From: a virus
Direction: 5' to 3' (one strand)
DNA: 36,589 nucleotides
IMG/VR virus record: IMGVR_UViG_3300009183_000027
Span: 1-36,589 of that record
Under the pieces are notes generated by a model. That model was not told the origin of the DNA. It ran no database searches and was given only the letters and a program-made list of their open reading frames with translations. The position numbers and the translations under genes were made by a program. Of this stretch, positions 19,152-32,137 are shown one piece after another (position 1 is the stretch's first letter; each line of letters opens with the position of its first letter).

Positions 19152-19289
19152 CTTGCGTAGTTCGACCATCGCGTCTTTGAAGTTGGCGGTGGCCTGCTCC
19201 AGCGCATCCTGTTGCTCCCTTAGTCGGACGTAGGATTCTTCTGCAAACTTGGCAAGGTTTTCGTGGCTCCACGCGGCGAAGTTGGGCAT
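19110..19289 (-). CDS. Small helical protein (59 aa), convergent with the endolysin
   Basis: From the ATG at 19289: MPNFAAWSHENLAKFAEESY, then a charged coiled-coil-like helix (REQQDALEQATANFKDAMVEL) and CASLELGNR. It is the last gene of the minus-strand block; its 3' 42 bases are antisense to the endolysin. An upstream in-frame ATG at 19334 would add 15 residues and a larger overlap with the preceding gene; 19289 has a GGAA-type site. Function unknown. Confidence 0.6.
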   Translation of the reverse strand: MPNFAAWSHENLAKFAEESYVRLREQQDALEQATANFKDAMVELRKLNDHCASLELGNR

Positions 19290-19417
19290 AGTTTGACTGA
19301 TTCCATAGTTGAAAAACGGTGCGTATTGGCGCACTCATAGCGCCGATAGACTTGATTGTCGTATTTGTGCCTGGTCTCCAGCACGCGAGTCCACGCGTTG
19401 CATTGTGGGCAGATCAA
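19220..19417 (-). CDS. NrdR-like zinc-ribbon protein (65 aa)
   Basis: Starts MICPQCNAWTRVLETRHKYD, then YRRYECANTHRFSTMESV. The first Cys pair (CPQC) and the R-x-YEC...H-RFST motif match the zinc ribbon at the N terminus of the NrdR repressor of ribonucleotide reductase genes, but the usual second strand Cys is partly replaced (ECANTH) and the ATP-cone domain is absent. This makes it a stand-alone DNA-binding zinc ribbon, possibly a transcription modulator. Overlaps the previous gene by 4 bases and the next by 70. Confidence 0.65.
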   Translation of the reverse strand: MICPQCNAWTRVLETRHKYDNQVYRRYECANTHRFSTMESVKLCPTSPRGATKTLPSLQKNPTSD

Positions 19418-24662: not shown

Positions 24663-26554
24663 TGACTCTTTGGGTTGATTTTGAAACCCGTAGCGCCTGC
24701 GACCTAAAAATCGCAGGCGTTTACAACTACGCGCAGCACGGCACGACCGAGGTGCTGTGTATGTCGTACGCTTTCGACGACGAGGGCGTGCAGACATGGT
24801 TGCCCGGCCAGCCGTTCCCGCATCGGGTGCGAGATTGGTATGGGTTTATTTACGCCCATAACGCAGCGTTTGAACGCCTAATTTTTTGGTACGTGTTGCA
24901 GATTAACTTCCACCTAGAGCAGTTTGTCTGCACCGCAGCAACGGCTCGCGCCAACTGCGCCCCTGGCTCGCTTGAGGACGTGGGCCGCTTTGCTGGCGCG
25001 TCGATGAAGAAAGACCATCGCGGCGCTCAACTAATCCGCAAGATGAGCGTGCCGCCCTACGAAGAATCGCCCGAGTTGACCGCCGAGATGGTGGCCTACT
25101 GTGAGCAGGACGTGCGGGCCATGCGCGCCATCTGCAAAGCGATGCGCCAATTGTCTCAGCAGGAATTGACCGACTACCATGTCAACGAGCGCATCAACGA
25201 CCGGGGCGTCCTGGTCGACGTGGAACTATGCCGCGCTGCGGTCAAGTACGCCAGCACCGAACTGGTCGAGATCCAAGACATTGTGGCCGAGGTCACCGAG
25301 GGCGCGATCACCAGCGTGCGCTCACCGAAGATGCGCGACTGGGTGTTCGAGCGTGTGGACGACGAGGCCCGCAAGCTGATGCAGAAAGACGGCAAAGTCA
25401 GCATTGACAAGACCGTCCGGTTCAACCTACTCAATTGTGATGGAGTGCCCCCCGATGTACAAGAAGTCATCCAATGCGCCGACGACCTATGGGCGTCCTC
25501 GGTTGCGAAGTTCAGCCGCTTGGCACAGCTATCAGATGAAGAGGATCGACGAGTTCGCGGCGCTTTTGTGTTCGCAGGGGGTTCCGCAACAGGCCGTGCA
25601 TCAAGTTACGGCGCTCAAGTCCACAACTTCACCCGAAAATGTGCTGAGGCTCCTGAAGATGTGCGCCGTTCAATGGTTCGTGGCCATGCAATCGTTCCCC
25701 GATACGGCAAACGAGTCACCGACGTTCTCAAAGGAATGCTCCGTCCTGCACTGATACCGGCCAAGGGTAAACACCTAGTCGTCGCCGATTGGGCTGCCAT
25801 CGAAGCTAGGGTAAACCCTTGGTTGTCCGGCAAGGGCGACGCCAAGCTGGCGCTCTTCGCGTCCGGCGAGGATGTCTACAAAGTCAACGCCGCCGCGACG
25901 TTCGGCGTGGCCGTGGCCGCAGTGACCAAAGACCAGCGCCAGATTGGCAAGGTGCAGGAGTTAGCCTGCGGCTTTGCCGGCGGCGTCGGGGCGTTTGCCG
26001 CGATGGGCCGCATCTACGGGATTACCCTACCCGAGTCCGACGCCCGCCGGATGGTGGACGGGTGGCGTAGGGCAAACCCTTGGTCTGTACCGTACTGGCA
26101 AGACCTAGAATCCGCGTACACCCGCGCCATGCGGAATAAGGGCAAAGAATTCGGCGCAGGCCGCGTCACCTATATGTATGACGGCCAGCACCTGTGGTAC
26201 GCCCTCCCGTCTGGCCGCGTTTTGTGCTACCCCTACGCCCGTCTCGAATCAGAAGGTATCACCTATGCCAAGGCTGCATGGAAGCCCGCCGCTGACGCTA
26301 CCGAATGGCCCCGCGCCCGCTTGTGGAAGGGGCTTGCCTGTGAGAACATCACCCAGGCCGTGGCCAATGACTTGCTGCGCCATTCGCTGCGCCAGCTTGA
26401 GGATGTGGTTCTCCACGTCCACGATGAAATCGTGATCGAGACCGCGACGCCCGACCCTGATGCGCTGCGCTCGATCATGTGTACCCCGCCCGACTGGGCC
26501 AAGGGTTTACCCCTAGACGCTGAAGTCTCAATCATGGAGCGATACGGAAAATGA
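24662..26554 (+). CDS. DNA polymerase, family A, with 3'-5' exonuclease
   Basis: 630 residues. Exonuclease motifs: VDFETRS (D6, E8), AHNAAFE (N67; the usual Asp is Glu E71, as in many phage relatives) and YCEQD (Y146, D150). Polymerase motif A is VVADWAAIEARV (D376), motif B spans KDQRQIGKVQEL to GFAGGVGAF, and motif C is HVHDEIVI (H587, D588, E589). There is no 5' nuclease domain. It would be the replicative polymerase of the phage. The start overlaps the previous stop (TGATG) and its stop overlaps the primase start by 4 bases. Confidence 0.93.
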   Translation: MTLWVDFETRSACDLKIAGVYNYAQHGTTEVLCMSYAFDDEGVQTWLPGQPFPHRVRDWYGFIYAHNAAFERLIFWYVLQINFHLEQFVCTAATARANCAPGSLEDVGRFAGASMKKDHRGAQLIRKMSVPPYEESPELTAEMVAYCEQDVRAMRAICKAMRQLSQQELTDYHVNERINDRGVLVDVELCRAAVKYASTELVEIQDIVAEVTEGAITSVRSPKMRDWVFERVDDEARKLMQKDGKVSIDKTVRFNLLNCDGVPPDVQEVIQCADDLWASSVAKFSRLAQLSDEEDRRVRGAFVFAGGSATGRASSYGAQVHNFTRKCAEAPEDVRRSMVRGHAIVPRYGKRVTDVLKGMLRPALIPAKGKHLVVADWAAIEARVNPWLSGKGDAKLALFASGEDVYKVNAAATFGVAVAAVTKDQRQIGKVQELACGFAGGVGAFAAMGRIYGITLPESDARRMVDGWRRANPWSVPYWQDLESAYTRAMRNKGKEFGAGRVTYMYDGQHLWYALPSGRVLCYPYARLESEGITYAKAAWKPAADATEWPRARLWKGLACENITQAVANDLLRHSLRQLEDVVLHVHDEIVIETATPDPDALRSIMCTPPDWAKGLPLDAEVSIMERYGK

Positions 26555-28839
26555 ATTTTCTAGACTACTTGGCCAACATAGCGCCCGAAGGCGAGACCAT
26601 CCTATTCGTGCGGCAGAAGCCCGCCAAGCCCGAGCAGTTCCACGCCGACGGCGCGATCAAGTGCTCATGGCCCGCGTACCTGCCCGACAAGTGGAAAGCC
26701 GACCAAGCGTGGTACTGCAACACCGGCTGTTTCATCATTGACCGATTCGAGGCTGGCCGCCCGTCGGCCCGCGCCGACAATTGCGAGCGGGTGGCGTTCC
26801 TTGTATTGGACGACGTGGGCACGAAGGCCAAAGTGCCGCCTATCGCCCCGACGTGGATCATGGAGACCAGCCCCGACAATTTCCAATACGGCTACACCTT
26901 TGCCCTAGACGACCAGCCCATGAAAGGCGACTTCGCCGCAGCCATCGTGGCCATCGCCGACGCGGGCTACACCGACGGCGGGGCCATCAACCCCGTGCGT
27001 AACTTCAGACTGCCCGGCTCGCTCAACCTCAAGCCTGGGCGTGACCGCTTTGCGTCCCGTCTGGTTGAGTTCCACGCCGACCGCGAGTTCTCCCTCGATG
27101 CCATCTGCACCGCCTTGGGCGTGACCCCAAACCCCGCCGACACCGCGACCGTGCGCCCGATCCGGCTTACCGACGATGGTGGCGACGACGTGCTGGCGTG
27201 GGTCGCGGCGCGTGGCGATCTGCTGGAGCGCGGTAACGCCGCTGGCTGGTGGGGCGTCGTGTGCCCCAACAGTGGCGAGCATTCCGACGGTAACCCGATG
27301 GGCCGCTACAACCCACTCAACAGGGCGTACTGCTGCCTGCATGAGCATTGCTCCGAGTGGGACAGCGAGGCGTACCTCGATTGGGTCGAGCAGCAGGGCG
27401 GGCCGTCGCGCGCGCATGGCCTGCGGGACGAGTTGCTGGCCGCAGTGATGGATGGCGCGCTGTCCAAGCTGGCCCCAACGCCCGACTATCCGGACGCCGC
27501 CGCCGAGGTCATTGCCGCCGTGGAGCAGCGCGAGCTTGGTCGAATTGAAAAGTCGCAGTGGTACGAGCGTTTTGCGTACATCCAAGACGACGACGCCTAT
27601 TTCGACATGACTGACCGCCGCGAGTTGTCCCGTGGCACGTTCAACGCCCTGTTCCGCCACATCCGCTGCGTGTCCACCCGCGACCAGGGCGGTAAGCGTA
27701 TGGTCGAGGCGTCGGTCTCGTTCGACGAGAACCGGCAAGCCAAAGGCGCCAAAGCGCTGGTCGGCATCACCTTTGCCGCAGGCGGCTCGGTGCTGGTGGC
27801 CCGTGAGGGGCTGGTCTACGGCAACCGCTGGCGTGACGCCCGCCCCGAACCCGTGCCGGGTGATGTGTCCCCGTGGATGCGCCACCTTGAGCGCATGGTC
27901 CCGATAGCGTTCGAGCGTGAACACTTGTTAAACGCCCTTGCCCATAAGGTGCAGTTCCCCGGCCATAAGATCAATCACGCCATCCTGATGGGCGGCGCGC
28001 CTGGCTCCGGCAAGGACACCCTATTCGCCCCGTTCTTTTGGTCGATAGGCGGCAAGGGCAAGGCGAATTGTTCCCTCGTGAAGTCCGAAGACCTAAGCTC
28101 CCAATGGGGCTACGCCCTCGAATGCGAAGTGATGGAGATCGCCGAATTGCGCCAGACCGAGGCCCGTGACCGCCGCGCACTGGAGAATGTCCTCAAGCCC
28201 ATCATCGCCGCCCCGCCCGAATTGCTCCCCGTGAACCGCAAGGGCTTGCATCCGTATATGGCGCTCAATCGCGTGTTCGTGGTGGCATTTTCAAACGAGC
28301 GTGCGGCCATCAGCATCCCCAGCGAGGACCGCCGTTGGTTTTGCCTATGGGCTGAGGCCGACCGCCTGCCAGAAGCGGAGGCCGTGGCCCTTTGGAACTG
28401 GTACGAGCACCGTGGCGGCTTTGCTGCTGTAGCCGCGTATTTGGCATCGCGTGACGTGTCAGCGTGGAACCCGTCCGCCCCGCCGCCTATGACTGAAGCG
28501 AAGGCCATCATGGTTGAGCATGGCATGAGCGGCGCGGAATCGTTCCTCGTGAACATGATCCGGGGCCGCGCCCGTGCGTTCGCTGGCGGCGTGATAGGCG
28601 CGCCATTCTTCGCAGTCTGCGACGAACTACAGCACTTTGCGCCCCCTGGCGTGAAGGTGGTGCCTGCTGCGCTTATGCACGCCTTGAAGGAAGCGGGCTG
28701 GATTGACATGGGCCGCCTCGCGTCCCGTGAATACCAAACGAAAAAGCATATCTTCTGCGCGCCGGAGATGGCCGACAGAATGACCCGTTCAGACCTGCGT
28801 AGGGCCATAGAAAAAGCCCCCGAAGGGGCTGAATCATAG
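26551..28839 (+). CDS. Primase-helicase (DUF5906-type ATPase)
   Basis: 762 residues. The N-terminal third is a primase-like region (LDDVGTKAKVPPIAPTWIMETSPDNFQYGY; PVRNFRLPGSLNLK) similar to RepB/archaeo-eukaryotic primase-like domains. A Cys/His-rich stretch (CPNSGEH ... CCLHEHC) near residue 236-270 looks like a zinc ribbon. The C-terminal ATPase has GGAPGSGKDTLF (K488), GYALECEVMEIAELRQ and VFVVAFSNERAA, typical of DUF5906/D5-like superfamily 3 helicases. It is the last gene of the replication operon. The DNA is clearly more G+C-rich than the structural region. Confidence 0.85.
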   Translation: MNFLDYLANIAPEGETILFVRQKPAKPEQFHADGAIKCSWPAYLPDKWKADQAWYCNTGCFIIDRFEAGRPSARADNCERVAFLVLDDVGTKAKVPPIAPTWIMETSPDNFQYGYTFALDDQPMKGDFAAAIVAIADAGYTDGGAINPVRNFRLPGSLNLKPGRDRFASRLVEFHADREFSLDAICTALGVTPNPADTATVRPIRLTDDGGDDVLAWVAARGDLLERGNAAGWWGVVCPNSGEHSDGNPMGRYNPLNRAYCCLHEHCSEWDSEAYLDWVEQQGGPSRAHGLRDELLAAVMDGALSKLAPTPDYPDAAAEVIAAVEQRELGRIEKSQWYERFAYIQDDDAYFDMTDRRELSRGTFNALFRHIRCVSTRDQGGKRMVEASVSFDENRQAKGAKALVGITFAAGGSVLVAREGLVYGNRWRDARPEPVPGDVSPWMRHLERMVPIAFEREHLLNALAHKVQFPGHKINHAILMGGAPGSGKDTLFAPFFWSIGGKGKANCSLVKSEDLSSQWGYALECEVMEIAELRQTEARDRRALENVLKPIIAAPPELLPVNRKGLHPYMALNRVFVVAFSNERAAISIPSEDRRWFCLWAEADRLPEAEAVALWNWYEHRGGFAAVAAYLASRDVSAWNPSAPPPMTEAKAIMVEHGMSGAESFLVNMIRGRARAFAGGVIGAPFFAVCDELQHFAPPGVKVVPAALMHALKEAGWIDMGRLASREYQTKKHIFCAPEMADRMTRSDLRRAIEKAPEGAES
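28811..28830 (-). terminator. Intrinsic terminator of the second minus-strand block, inside the primase gene
   Basis: Reading on the minus strand: AGCCCC, TTCG loop, GGGGCT, TTTTT. The UUCG tetraloop and U-run make a classical terminator for the minus-strand genes ending at 28834. It is coded within the last 10 codons of the plus-strand primase gene, so the protein sequence (KAPEGAES) and the terminator share bases. On the plus strand there is no T-run after the stem. Confidence 0.8.
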
Positions 28840-29271: not shown

Positions 29272-29844
29272 CTAGCAGGTGGCCACCCAGGGCGCGACGC
29301 GGGGCCGGTCCGCACCACGCACGGGCATTACGAACACCTGTAGGTCGTCGTCGATATCACAATGCCCGACGCTGTTACCGTTTTGCGTGACGTGGTATAG
29401 CGTGCCCTTGTTCCCGTGGTATTCCCCGGCTGCTTTTTGGACCGTGGCCAGATATTCCGGGTTAAAGTACGCCTGTTCGCCGGTTTGCGGAGCGCGGATC
29501 ACCCGACGCCAATCTGGGTATTGTGCTTCGACCGCGTCGGCCGTCGTTTCCCCGGCCGTCGTTGTGATCGTCACTCTAGCCCCGTCATATTGTTCGATCA
29601 TGGCCGCGCCTTTCGCGCCTTTAATCGCAGCGGCCAGCCGGTCCGATCCGACGATCACGCTGGCCGGGGTTTGCGCCTGGGTATCTACCCGCGCGATCGC
29701 GATAAAATGGCCGTTAGTGGCCACCGCATAAGTACCGGTCGGGCCTTGTTCGATATGCACGCCCTGTAGGTAATAGCGGATATCTTTTTTGGCCGTGAAA
29801 TGTAACAGCGCTTTGATCGTTTTGATCTGAATTGTGGTTTGCAT
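29272..29844 (-). CDS. Short DnaN-like sliding-clamp protein (190 aa)
   Basis: The sequence has several hallmarks of the beta clamp: ATNGHFIAIARV (residues 42-53; DnaN has ATDGHRLA), YPDWRRVI (109-116; DnaN has FPDYRRV), YFNPEYLATVQKA (126-138) and VFVMPVR (170-176; DnaN ends VMPMR). A full clamp has three domains and about 366 residues; this has room for only about one and a half, so it may form a larger oligomer or be a decoy. A clamp for the phage's own polymerase, or interference with the host clamp, are both possible. GGAG lies upstream of the ATG. Confidence 0.65.
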   Translation of the reverse strand: MQTTIQIKTIKALLHFTAKKDIRYYLQGVHIEQGPTGTYAVATNGHFIAIARVDTQAQTPASVIVGSDRLAAAIKGAKGAAMIEQYDGARVTITTTAGETTADAVEAQYPDWRRVIRAPQTGEQAYFNPEYLATVQKAAGEYHGNKGTLYHVTQNGNSVGHCDIDDDLQVFVMPVRGADRPRVAPWVATC

Positions 29845-30326: not shown

Positions 30327-30986
30327 TTATGCTGCTAATTTGATATCAATAACCCGGCGGCGCGTACCGTGAGCGGGAAATCCCACAATAGCCGCGCGCT
30401 GGCGCTGGCACAGCTGGCACGTCGCGCAGCTGACGTCGTCGCGCTGGGTGGCCGGGCACACTATGACCGCGCGGCCGCGTGGCGTCGTGGTGTTGCTGGT
30501 TTGCGTTGACGGGAGCACGACAACGACCGGGCCCGCATCGGCATCGGCAAGGGCATCGGCATCGGCCAGGTCGTTGGCGCTCAGATTGACAGTGAAACCC
30601 CATTGGTTCGCATGGCGGATCCAGTTTATAGATTCTGCATCCCTGTGGTGGCTGTATGTGAACCCGCGCTTGCCAATATTGGCGGCCACCAGATCACCCA
30701 GCAGCGCCGCGTCGATCGTACCGTTTGCTTGGGGCAGATCGCCCGCTTGATTGTGCCGCCACAGCTGGCCGTCGGGCAGCGCTGCGATCGCTTGGGTGAA
30801 TTCGGGCCAGCTGGTGCCGCGCGCGCCATTGGACACGGCCGCCCAATGCAGCGCGAGCGGCCCGCTGGCCGCGTAGCATTCGGCTTTCATTTTGCAATCT
30901 GCGGGGCAGCTGGCGCGCTCAGTCGTGCTAACGGGAATGGGGCCGGTTTTCACATTGGCGCTTTTTGGGGTGAGATGTACTTGCAT
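30327..30986 (-). CDS. Cys-containing conserved phage protein (219 aa), possible metal/Fe-S protein
   Basis: The ATG at 30986 with AGGAAA upstream gives MQVHLTPKSANVKTGPIPVS; an earlier in-frame ATG at 31058 lies beyond the operator-like repeat and is less likely. Cys groups: CPADCKMKAECYA (near residue 28-40) and VCPATQRDDVSCATCQLC near the C terminus. Conserved-looking blocks RHNQAGDLP, FTYSHHR and NLSANDLADAD alternate as in a TIM-barrel-like fold. I associate it with the phage family DUF7227 (recalled). The CYA-ending Cys motif recalls radical-SAM-related phage proteins, but the spacing is not canonical. First gene of this block. Confidence 0.68.
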   Translation of the reverse strand: MQVHLTPKSANVKTGPIPVSTTERASCPADCKMKAECYAASGPLALHWAAVSNGARGTSWPEFTQAIAALPDGQLWRHNQAGDLPQANGTIDAALLGDLVAANIGKRGFTYSHHRDAESINWIRHANQWGFTVNLSANDLADADALADADAGPVVVVLPSTQTSNTTTPRGRAVIVCPATQRDDVSCATCQLCQRQRAAIVGFPAHGTRRRVIDIKLAA

Positions 30987-31028
30987 AGTGTAGTTTCCTG
31001 TACTGTATGCCGACGCTGGCATGATGCT

Positions 31029-31051
31029 ATTGTAAGGGATTGTTTTACAAT
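31029..31051. promoter_or_regulatory. Inverted repeat, candidate operator for the minus-strand block
   Basis: ATTGTAA (31029-31035) and TTACAAT (31045-31051) are exact inverted arms with a 9-base spacer, about 45 bases upstream of the first minus-strand gene. On the minus strand the left arm also gives TACAAT, a possible -10 element, so a repressor bound here could block the promoter. A second small inverted repeat, ATGCC/GGCAT, lies at 31007-31022. Confidence 0.5.
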
Positions 31052-31083
31052 TATTCATTCTTTAGTTGCGATTTTCATCTTTT

Positions 31084-31543
31084 TTGTTGGCTATGCATAG
31101 CCAACAATAGCCAACAAATGCGCCTTGGTAGCTAACATGGCCAGCGCGCCAGTGAATTGTTGGCTAATTTGTTGGCGTTGTTGGCAGTTCTGTTGGCAGC
31201 ATTGTTGGCAGCACCGAAAATGCATCCCGCCATTGGGAAAGTACCCGGCGGTTGGCTATATTGTCATTTATTTGTTAGTTTATGAAAAATCTAATATATA
31301 CTGTATAGATATACAGGTAAATAGTTGTATAGGCCACCACCTGCTGTTGGCATAGCCAACATGCCAACACAACTAAAATTGTATGCACTATGCCCCGATG
31401 CCAACATGGCCGCGCGCACCAGGCGCGCAGCGCTGGCGTCAATGTTGGCTATGTTGGCTATCAAAAAACAATAGCCAACAATGCCAACATGGTGACAGCT
31501 CGCGGCTCGATGTTGTTGGCATAGCCAACAATGCCAACATGGT
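31084..31543. repeat. GTTGGC/GCCAAC iteron-like array
   Basis: Twenty exact copies of GTTGGC or its complement occur in about 450 bases (first bases at 31086, 31100, 31110, 31159, 31171, 31180, 31192, 31204, 31251, 31346, 31355, 31363, 31400, 31444, 31453, 31474, 31483, 31515, 31524, 31533); fewer than one is expected by chance. Most carry flanking T/A (TGTTGGC). Common spacing is 8-12 bases, about one helical turn. Positions 31084-31107 form a 24-base perfect palindrome; TGTTGGCATAGCCAACA occurs at 31345 and 31514; 31471-31493 and 31521-31543 are a 23-base exact direct repeat. No gene is apparent here. Candidate origin, pac site or regulator array. Confidence 0.9.
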
Positions 31544-31551
31544 TTGTTGCT

Positions 31552-31590
31552 TGCACGAACTAACTATAGTTAGTTTGCTGCACGAACTAA
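31552..31590. promoter_or_regulatory. Palindrome with flanking direct repeats
   Basis: AACTAACTATAGTTAGTT (31558-31575) is an 18-base perfect palindrome. TGCACGAACTAA occurs at 31552-31563 and again at 31579-31590, so the palindrome overlaps one copy and a second follows 27 bases on. The motif is unrelated to the GTTGGC array beside it. It suggests binding of a second dimeric protein between the array and the terminase promoter. A G-rich run (31619-31635) follows. Confidence 0.7.
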
Positions 31591-31665
31591 GCATGGGGCC
31601 GGGTGGCCAGGTAGCCGAGGGGTGGGGGGGGGAGGGCCATGGCCAGGGGCCAACGGTAGCGGAGC

Positions 31666-31693
31666 CTTCACGAACAAATTTTTTTAATATAAA
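31666..31693 (+). promoter_or_regulatory. Candidate promoter of the late (terminase) operon
   Basis: TTCACG (31666-31671), 16-base spacer, TATAAA (31688-31693) inside an A/T-rich patch that stands out from the G-rich sequence before it; TAAAAT at 31690 with an 18-base spacer is an alternative -10. The small terminase ATG lies 33 bases downstream after AGGAGA. It would drive the long late block. The -35 is a moderate match, so an activator may be needed. Confidence 0.5.
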
Positions 31694-31726
31694 ATTCCAG
31701 CACACGCCCCCGGCGCAGGAGAACCA

Positions 31727-32137
31727 ATGTTCCAGTCACTGCCACTGACCATACGCAAAGTCGAAGCAACTGAGTCGCGCTTGCAGTCAATCTACGACGC
31801 CGCCAAGCTAGGTCTCAAAGGCGACACGCTTGCCCTGGCGTCAGGAATGCGACCCGATGAGTACCGCCAACTATGCCAACTTGACCCACTGGCCGAGATG
31901 GCCGCAATCAAAGGCAAAGCCGACGGCGAACGCGAGATGGCCAACATCTTGCACAACGCTGCGCGCGAAGGCGACGCTAAGGCAGCGCTGGAAATCCTCA
32001 AGCATCAGCACGGTTGGGTGGCCAAGCAGTCCATCTCGGTTGACATCGACCAACGTATATCCATCACGCAAGCGCTGCATGAAGCCGAGTTGCGTGTCAT
32101 AGAGGTCATTGATGCAGTCGACCAAATACAGCGCTGA
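31727..32137 (+). CDS. Terminase small subunit
   Basis: A 136-residue protein starting MFQSLPLTIRKVEATESRLQ. The N-terminal half carries a helix-turn-helix-like segment (IYDAAKLGLKGDTLALASGM then RPDEYRQLCQLDP), followed by a helical oligomerisation region (AREGDAKAALEILKHQHGW) and a C-terminal tail. This matches small phage terminases that recognise the packaging site. It is directly upstream of, and overlaps by 26 bases, the large subunit. The repeat array begins about 640 bases upstream and ends 183 bases upstream, a reasonable place for its binding site. Confidence 0.8.
   Translation: MFQSLPLTIRKVEATESRLQSIYDAAKLGLKGDTLALASGMRPDEYRQLCQLDPLAEMAAIKGKADGEREMANILHNAAREGDAKAALEILKHQHGWVAKQSISVDIDQRISITQALHEAELRVIEVIDAVDQIQR

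Follow-up and report, generated by a model that had tools for sequence, protein, structure and literature searches.

A repeat array upstream of the small terminase gene of an uncultured phage is a probable iteron origin whose boxes covary with the wing of the phage primase-helicase

What reads a dense cluster of short repeats in the non-coding DNA between two phage operons, and what would it be for? The window analysed here, the whole stretch of 36,589 nucleotides in IMG/VR record IMGVR_UViG_3300009183_000027, is a circular phage genome (36.5-kb, with a 123-bp end overlap) that encodes, among others, a P22-like portal (PF16510), a family A DNA polymerase and a PD-(D/E)XK exonuclease. The first minus-strand early operon ends with a 65-aa NrdR-type zinc ribbon (19220-19417, minus strand; PF22811, 34.9 bits over 27.2), and in relatives an RHH or HTH protein takes this place. 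A 190-aa protein encoded at 29272-29844 (minus strand) matches a sliding clamp weakly (DNA_pol3_beta_2, 27.2 bits over 27.0) and a RusA-like PHROG more strongly. The repeat cluster itself sits between a divergent minus-strand early operon, headed by a DUF7227 gene (30327-31058, minus strand; PF23872, 281.7 bits), and the small terminase gene (TerS; 31727-32137, plus strand), which was assigned by position and by the annotation of relatives. A first-pass annotation had offered three candidate functions: an origin, a pac site or a silencing array. Our preferred reading, to which we give a probability of roughly 0.83, is that the array is an iteron origin of replication and that the phage's own primase-helicase binds it through a C-terminal domain predicted to be a winged helix.

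The array spans 31084-31543, with no strand assigned. A direct count in the window returned 20 exact GTTGGC/GCCAAC hexamers at 31086-31538, in agreement with the number first reported. Dinucleotide shuffles of the stretch held 0.61 hexamers on average and 5 at most (2000 shuffles); the second-densest 455-base stretch of the window contains 6, so the hexamer is not equally dense elsewhere, an outcome that had been named as one that would speak against the array. The box is better written as the 9-mer TGTNGGYNN (19 exact TGTTGGC and one GGTTGGC), with TGTTGGCTA or TGTTGGCAT as the unit in both orientations. The sequence TGTTGGC is followed by TA, AT, AG or GT, i.e. the boxes end as in TGTTGGCTA or in -CAT, -CAG and -CGT, and they occur on both strands as direct and inverted pairs, frequently 9 bp apart. 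Successive hexamers are spaced by 8-12 bases in 11 of 19 cases, with clusters at 9 and 12; these spacings do not warrant the earlier proposal that the hexamers share one helical face.

The boxes fall into two half-arrays. The left one (31085-31258) has 9-bp boxes at 31085+, 31098-, 31108-, 31158+, 31170+, 31179+, 31191+, 31203+ and 31250+, while the right one (31345-31539) has boxes at 31345+, 31353-, 31361-, 31398-, 31443+, 31452+, 31472-, 31481-, 31514+, 31522- and 31531-. Between them lies an A+T-rich gap (31257-31340; 75% A+T) containing the palindromic inverted repeat CTGTATAGATATACAG, a candidate DNA-unwinding element; A+T-rich stretches in the arrays of relatives reach 70-81% A+T. Beside the gap is an anchor pair on the plus strand (31250-31268), consisting of box GGTTGGCTA followed by ATTGTCATT and established by direct reading and alignment. 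A box pair at this position is found in nearly all relatives. The 24-base perfect palindrome (TTGTTGGCTATG/CATAGCCAACAA; 31084-31107), made of two divergent boxes, and the 23-base direct repeat (31471-31493 and 31521-31543) described in the first-pass annotation are both real.

Coding does not account for the repeats, in line with the first-pass annotation: no protein family was found in the array frames, and the two longest of the spurious ORFs measure 76 and 121 aa. The array DNA strand folds strongly (z -8.4), as expected given the inverted copies, and an Rfam search for RNA structure matched no family. Hairpins as the function of the array are disfavoured by the one-directional arrays of relatives. 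A second short repeat pair with a palindrome, GCACGAACTAACTATAGTTAGTTTGCTGCACGAACTAA, adjoins the array at 31557-31590 and is present in two relatives (L012 and L013) too. The TerS leader (31620-31700) has a GGGTAGGGCC...CGGAG...CACGAACAAATTTTTTT pattern common to many relatives, which may be a packaging, terminator or late leader signal, and its folding was not better than that of shuffles.

About 150 related loci were gathered by TerS and TerL searches. In each clear relative an array occupies this position, just upstream of TerS, and is built from a word specific to each phage (TGTNGG, TGTGGAC, TTTGGGTC, TGTGTGCC and TGTGAGTC). Relatives with the same gene order that lack repeats, which would have weakened the case, were not encountered, as same-order relatives all have arrays. 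In 15 of 16 genomes (the window plus 15 relatives) the 600-bp stretch richest in the phage's own word starts 0.36-0.78 kb upstream of TerS; the exception, G007, gave no clear peak for the word tried. An exact 18-base tandem, TAGCCAACATAGCCAACA, was found in 50 stretches among 2.9 million viral contigs, 48 of them with genes of this phage family. These matches adjoin TerS wherever TerS is present, and many belong to lineages only 57-68% identical in TerS. The array of one relative, L043, contains eight tandem 9-mers in a single direction. The most remote relative (L167, MW202483.1) has the wing GMCFAPELSTKRH and the array word GTTTACA/GTAAACA, and encodes a DnaA domain IV-like protein. A further array upstream of TerS, that of L302, is a hybrid of 9 TGTGGAC and 8 TTTGGGTC, though the wing is of the TTTGGGTC type; this phage is possibly a recombinant in transition.

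Conservation is concentrated within the boxes. Among 1306 aligned boxes of close relatives, mismatch at positions 1-9 was 4, 2, 2, 31, 1, 1, 21, 30 and 28%, against a background of 18%. Hence TGT-N-GG is held, and base 4 and bases 7-9 are free or fast-changing. Between the window and L014 there are 3 substitutions in 133 box bases (2.3%), compared with 71 in 338 between boxes (21%). These comparisons indicate that the boxes are under selection. Base 4 is homogeneous within many single arrays, and our guess is that this uniformity comes from local duplication.

The putative initiator is a 762-aa primase-helicase (26551-28839, plus strand), whose match to PF19263 (38.6 bits) exceeds the curated cut-off of 27.6 and places it among the DUF5906/NrS-1-like phage primase-helicases. 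Its gene lies 2.2 kb from the array, which is next to the late operon. An AlphaFold model of residues 676-762 (28576-28836, plus strand) with 38 relatives has a helix-helix-strand-turn-strand arrangement with a mean pLDDT of 85.7, and the domain is predicted to be a winged helix. The wing, GRLASREYQTKKH, corresponds to residues 721-733 (28711-28749, plus strand). Residues 722, 724, 726 and 729 covary with the box; the model places 722 and 724 on the first hairpin strand, with 726 and 729 in the turn. Foldseek of the domain model against the PDB gave no significant match, P4 alpha being absent among the listed matches, and a PDB sequence search gave no match to P4 alpha. The best viral structure matches to the domain are other phage primase-helicases, the top one being a relative annotated 'NrS-1 polymerase-like helicase'.

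The primase-helicase had at first been dismissed as the reader, since phages that differ in word are still highly identical over the protein as a whole. This was reversed by the C-terminal segment, which over ~100 phages reveals covariation: the words track the wing, and neither TerS nor any variable early gene. Arg722 goes with G at base 5 (G5), Arg726 with G2, and Lys724 plus an acidic residue at 729 with A6 (Fisher 4e-10 to 4e-19). In the first set of 104 non-redundant phages, the fourfold counts were 16/1/0/87 for Lys724 plus Asp/Glu729 with TGTGGA boxes (P 6e-18), 7/1/0/96 for non-R726 with TTTRGGTC (4e-10) and 16/0/0/88 for non-R722 with TGTGTG/TGTGAG (4e-19), the word classes and thresholds of this set having been drawn up post hoc. 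The single exception to both the 724/729 and the 726 rules is L096, whose own word is TATGGACAA by top 7-mers. In spirit this phage is consistent with both rules, having A6 and lacking G2, with Ser in place of Arg726. Base 4 is, on the sequence comparison, not read by the wing, since it is T, mixed, or A/G among phages whose wings are identical. Among phages with the wing GRLASRAHSTRKH, both G and A occur at base 5.

Shared ancestry was considered with two trees. On a tree of the domain minus the wing, the word class changes ~10 times, with A6 and Lys724 each changing 6 times. On the TerL tree, residue 729 alone among 1004 primase-helicase and TerL columns separates all 24 non-overlapping contrast pairs for A6. 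For the T2/TTTGGGTC class, residue 726 separates 15 of 15 pairs, columns 454 and 729 being the only others to do so. The class lacking G5 gave only 6 contrast pairs, which 24 columns separate, and the Arg722 link thus relies mainly on the raw association. A near-zero TerL distance within contrast pairs implies that TerL and the initiator have recombined; the contrasts are cleaner for it, but this tree then does not stand for the history of all genes.

The rules were fixed before being applied to a held-out set of 67 loci, taken from two further scans and with arrays outside the first set; this set alone is free of post hoc choice. Where A6 was predicted, TGTGGAC was enriched in 20/20 loci (19 as the top 9-mer class, and L357 by the TGTGGAC 7-mer). 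Where a base other than G2 was predicted together with G6, TTTGGGTC came out on top in 29/30, most of these being near relatives of the training set, and the remaining one is the L302 hybrid. A phage with Val at 726 (L391) has the word ATGGTCA, likewise without G2. For the 10 loci predicted to have G2, G5 and G6, GGG was on top in 6, GAG in 3, and the signal was weak in 1. The remote held-out phages L416, L425, L427 and L431 (A6), along with L391 and L392, count most. A lineage with a GRINTRE wing (L421, L422, L428, L429 and L430) has repeated TGACGTG/CACGTCA, a word that the simple code does not explain.

Taken together, the data suggest an origin of the following kind. Some 20 iterons of 9 bp (TGTNGGYNN, both orientations) flank the A+T-rich stretch and would be bound by the predicted C-terminal winged helix of the primase-helicase, which would assemble on both half-arrays. 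The wing would contact box bases 2, 5 and 6 via residues 726, 722 and 724/729, respectively. The bound protein could then melt the A+T-rich gap, prime, and load a replication fork with the phage PolA and SSB; binding, melting and initiation are steps that we infer from sequence. Lineages appear to have switched the wing and all boxes together many times. The locus has the repeats of one sequence clustered at a fixed place, and the adjoining A+T-rich region, of an iteron origin, while covariation and held-out prediction indicate that the initiator determines repeat specificity. The GC-skew switch that the first-pass annotation expected at 31.0-31.6 kb is absent from the array, which counts against the origin reading.

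Other readers of the array must be weighed against the primase-helicase. The position directly upstream of TerS in all relatives would suit a packaging site (pac or cosB-like) that the small terminase reads. However, L151, L154 and L155 have identical TerS N-terminal 60 residues and different words, and nearly identical TerS proteins accompany different arrays in L072, L081 and L083. As its DNA-binding region does not vary with the site, TerS was rejected as the reader, and we consider a packaging site very improbable. We place equally little weight on a host factor or on one of the variable early regulators (RHH, HTH or zinc-ribbon) encoded where the first minus-strand operon ends, given that in held-out genomes the word can already be predicted from a phage protein. 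Such regulators do exist in the window and its relatives, and an RHH protein was a promising candidate for short tandem boxes, yet RHH DNA-binding regions are identical between L207/G023, with the word TGTGGAC, and G012, with TTTGGGTC. The HTH and early zinc-ribbon proteins, the latter suggested for a binding test by the first-pass annotation, are not common to phages with the same word. A host-wide factor was discarded on the absence of the tandem word from unrelated phages. A search of the second early operon for gene content associated with the word returned only shadow ORFs of the primase gene and the array itself.

The primase-helicase might bind the array mainly as an operator, so that divergent promoters in the A+T-rich gap would tie replication to transcription of the late genes (from TerS on) and of the early genes (from DUF7227 on). 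The array does lie between divergent operons, its place beside the late operon and 2.2 kb from the initiator gene would allow a part in transcription, and 6 promoter-like sites were found in 30950-31800 against 1.3 expected, some within the gap; but the promoter matches score weakly (9 of 12), helicases known to carry a C-terminal origin-binding domain work at origins, and a gap flanked by iterons is origin anatomy. We regard the operator as unlikely, though it is the least improbable of these alternatives. The least credible is that the array arose by chance or as a neutral minisatellite from replication slippage. This would fit the one-directional tandem arrays such as that of L043, and the homogeneity of base 4 within arrays without a known reader, but not the presence of both orientations or the diverged spacers around conserved boxes, and it is refuted by the covariation with a protein. 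An oriC-type origin with TTATNCACA DnaA boxes was rejected, as the window has no Bac_DnaA_C and base 4, free here, is fixed in DnaA boxes. No ParA/ParB of a parS-like system was seen among the proteins scanned, a subset of the ORFs. Of the functions first proposed, the iteron origin is thus favoured by the arrays of relatives and the wing covariation, the small terminase is opposed by the comparisons above, and the silencing array is not supported.

No published origin was found in the literature for this phage group, for which the data suggest a putative iteron origin with its initiator and a partial residue-to-base code. If the wing sets specificity, the C-terminal domain of the window protein (676-762) would prefer TGTTGGCTA over TGTGGACAA or TTTGGGTCA, and changing the wing to KSREFD would shift preference toward TGTGGACAA. 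Origins of uncultured tailed phages are rarely known, and in this case reader, site and partial code come from metagenomic data alone and predict unseen genomes. We tentatively propose, at a little under even odds, that origin and reader in this large freshwater phage family make up an evolvable lock and key. The word would be set by a few wing residues, protein and all ~10-20 boxes would switch together repeatedly, probably escaping origin exploiters (satellites, rival phages, origin-directed nucleases), and the code would predict origins of uncultured phages. The family would then be a natural experiment over many lineages, in which a DNA-binding wing and a multi-copy site change specificity jointly with function kept. 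It would offer a direct test of why origins diversify, as well as initiator-origin pairs, each distinct from the others, that could be compared.

The proposed arrangement resembles that of P4, where origin repeats lie in both orientations beside an A+T-rich region. P4 alpha is a multifunctional primase-helicase with a TOPRIM-type primase; its winged helix binds the origin repeats, and the protein goes on to unwind and prime (PMC4234260). The likeness, by sequence, is in a single primase-helicase with a predicted C-terminal winged helix plus origin repeats. In contrast to the TOPRIM primase of P4, the N-terminus here resembles RepB/PrimPol weakly at best, and the helicase is of the DUF5906 type. 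The array lies away from the initiator gene, and there is no significant structural match. By analogy, the window protein would work like P4 alpha without belonging to its family, given no sequence match and its absence among the listed fold matches. The NrS-1 primase-polymerase-like proteins share PF19263 and provide the top viral structure match, but the window phage has a separate family A polymerase. To our knowledge, no origin or iteron code has been reported for NrS-1-like phage proteins.

The C-terminal domain of the SCCmec helicase Cch2 binds putative origin repeats, and SaPI Rep and SCCmec Cch/Cch2 likewise place a C-terminal domain on short repeats at a (putative) origin (PMC7581432). 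They differ in belonging to satellite or cassette elements, with origins directly downstream of the helicase gene and few iterons (three in SCCmec). In the PLE RepA_N initiator of Vibrio, the DNA-binding domain covaries with origin iterons, and an origin-directed nuclease may drive the switching (PMC8263062); this involves whole-domain swaps between two known specificities, whereas the window family has point changes in the wing and five or more. Geminivirus Rep belongs to single-stranded DNA plant viruses and is an unrelated rolling-circle protein, but its iterons also vary among close relatives and covary with a short segment, the iteron-related domain, for which diversifying selection has been proposed (PMC12548392). 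The PLE and geminivirus cases (PMC8263062; PMC12548392) show initiator domains covarying with iterons, and conflict as something that can drive this covariation.
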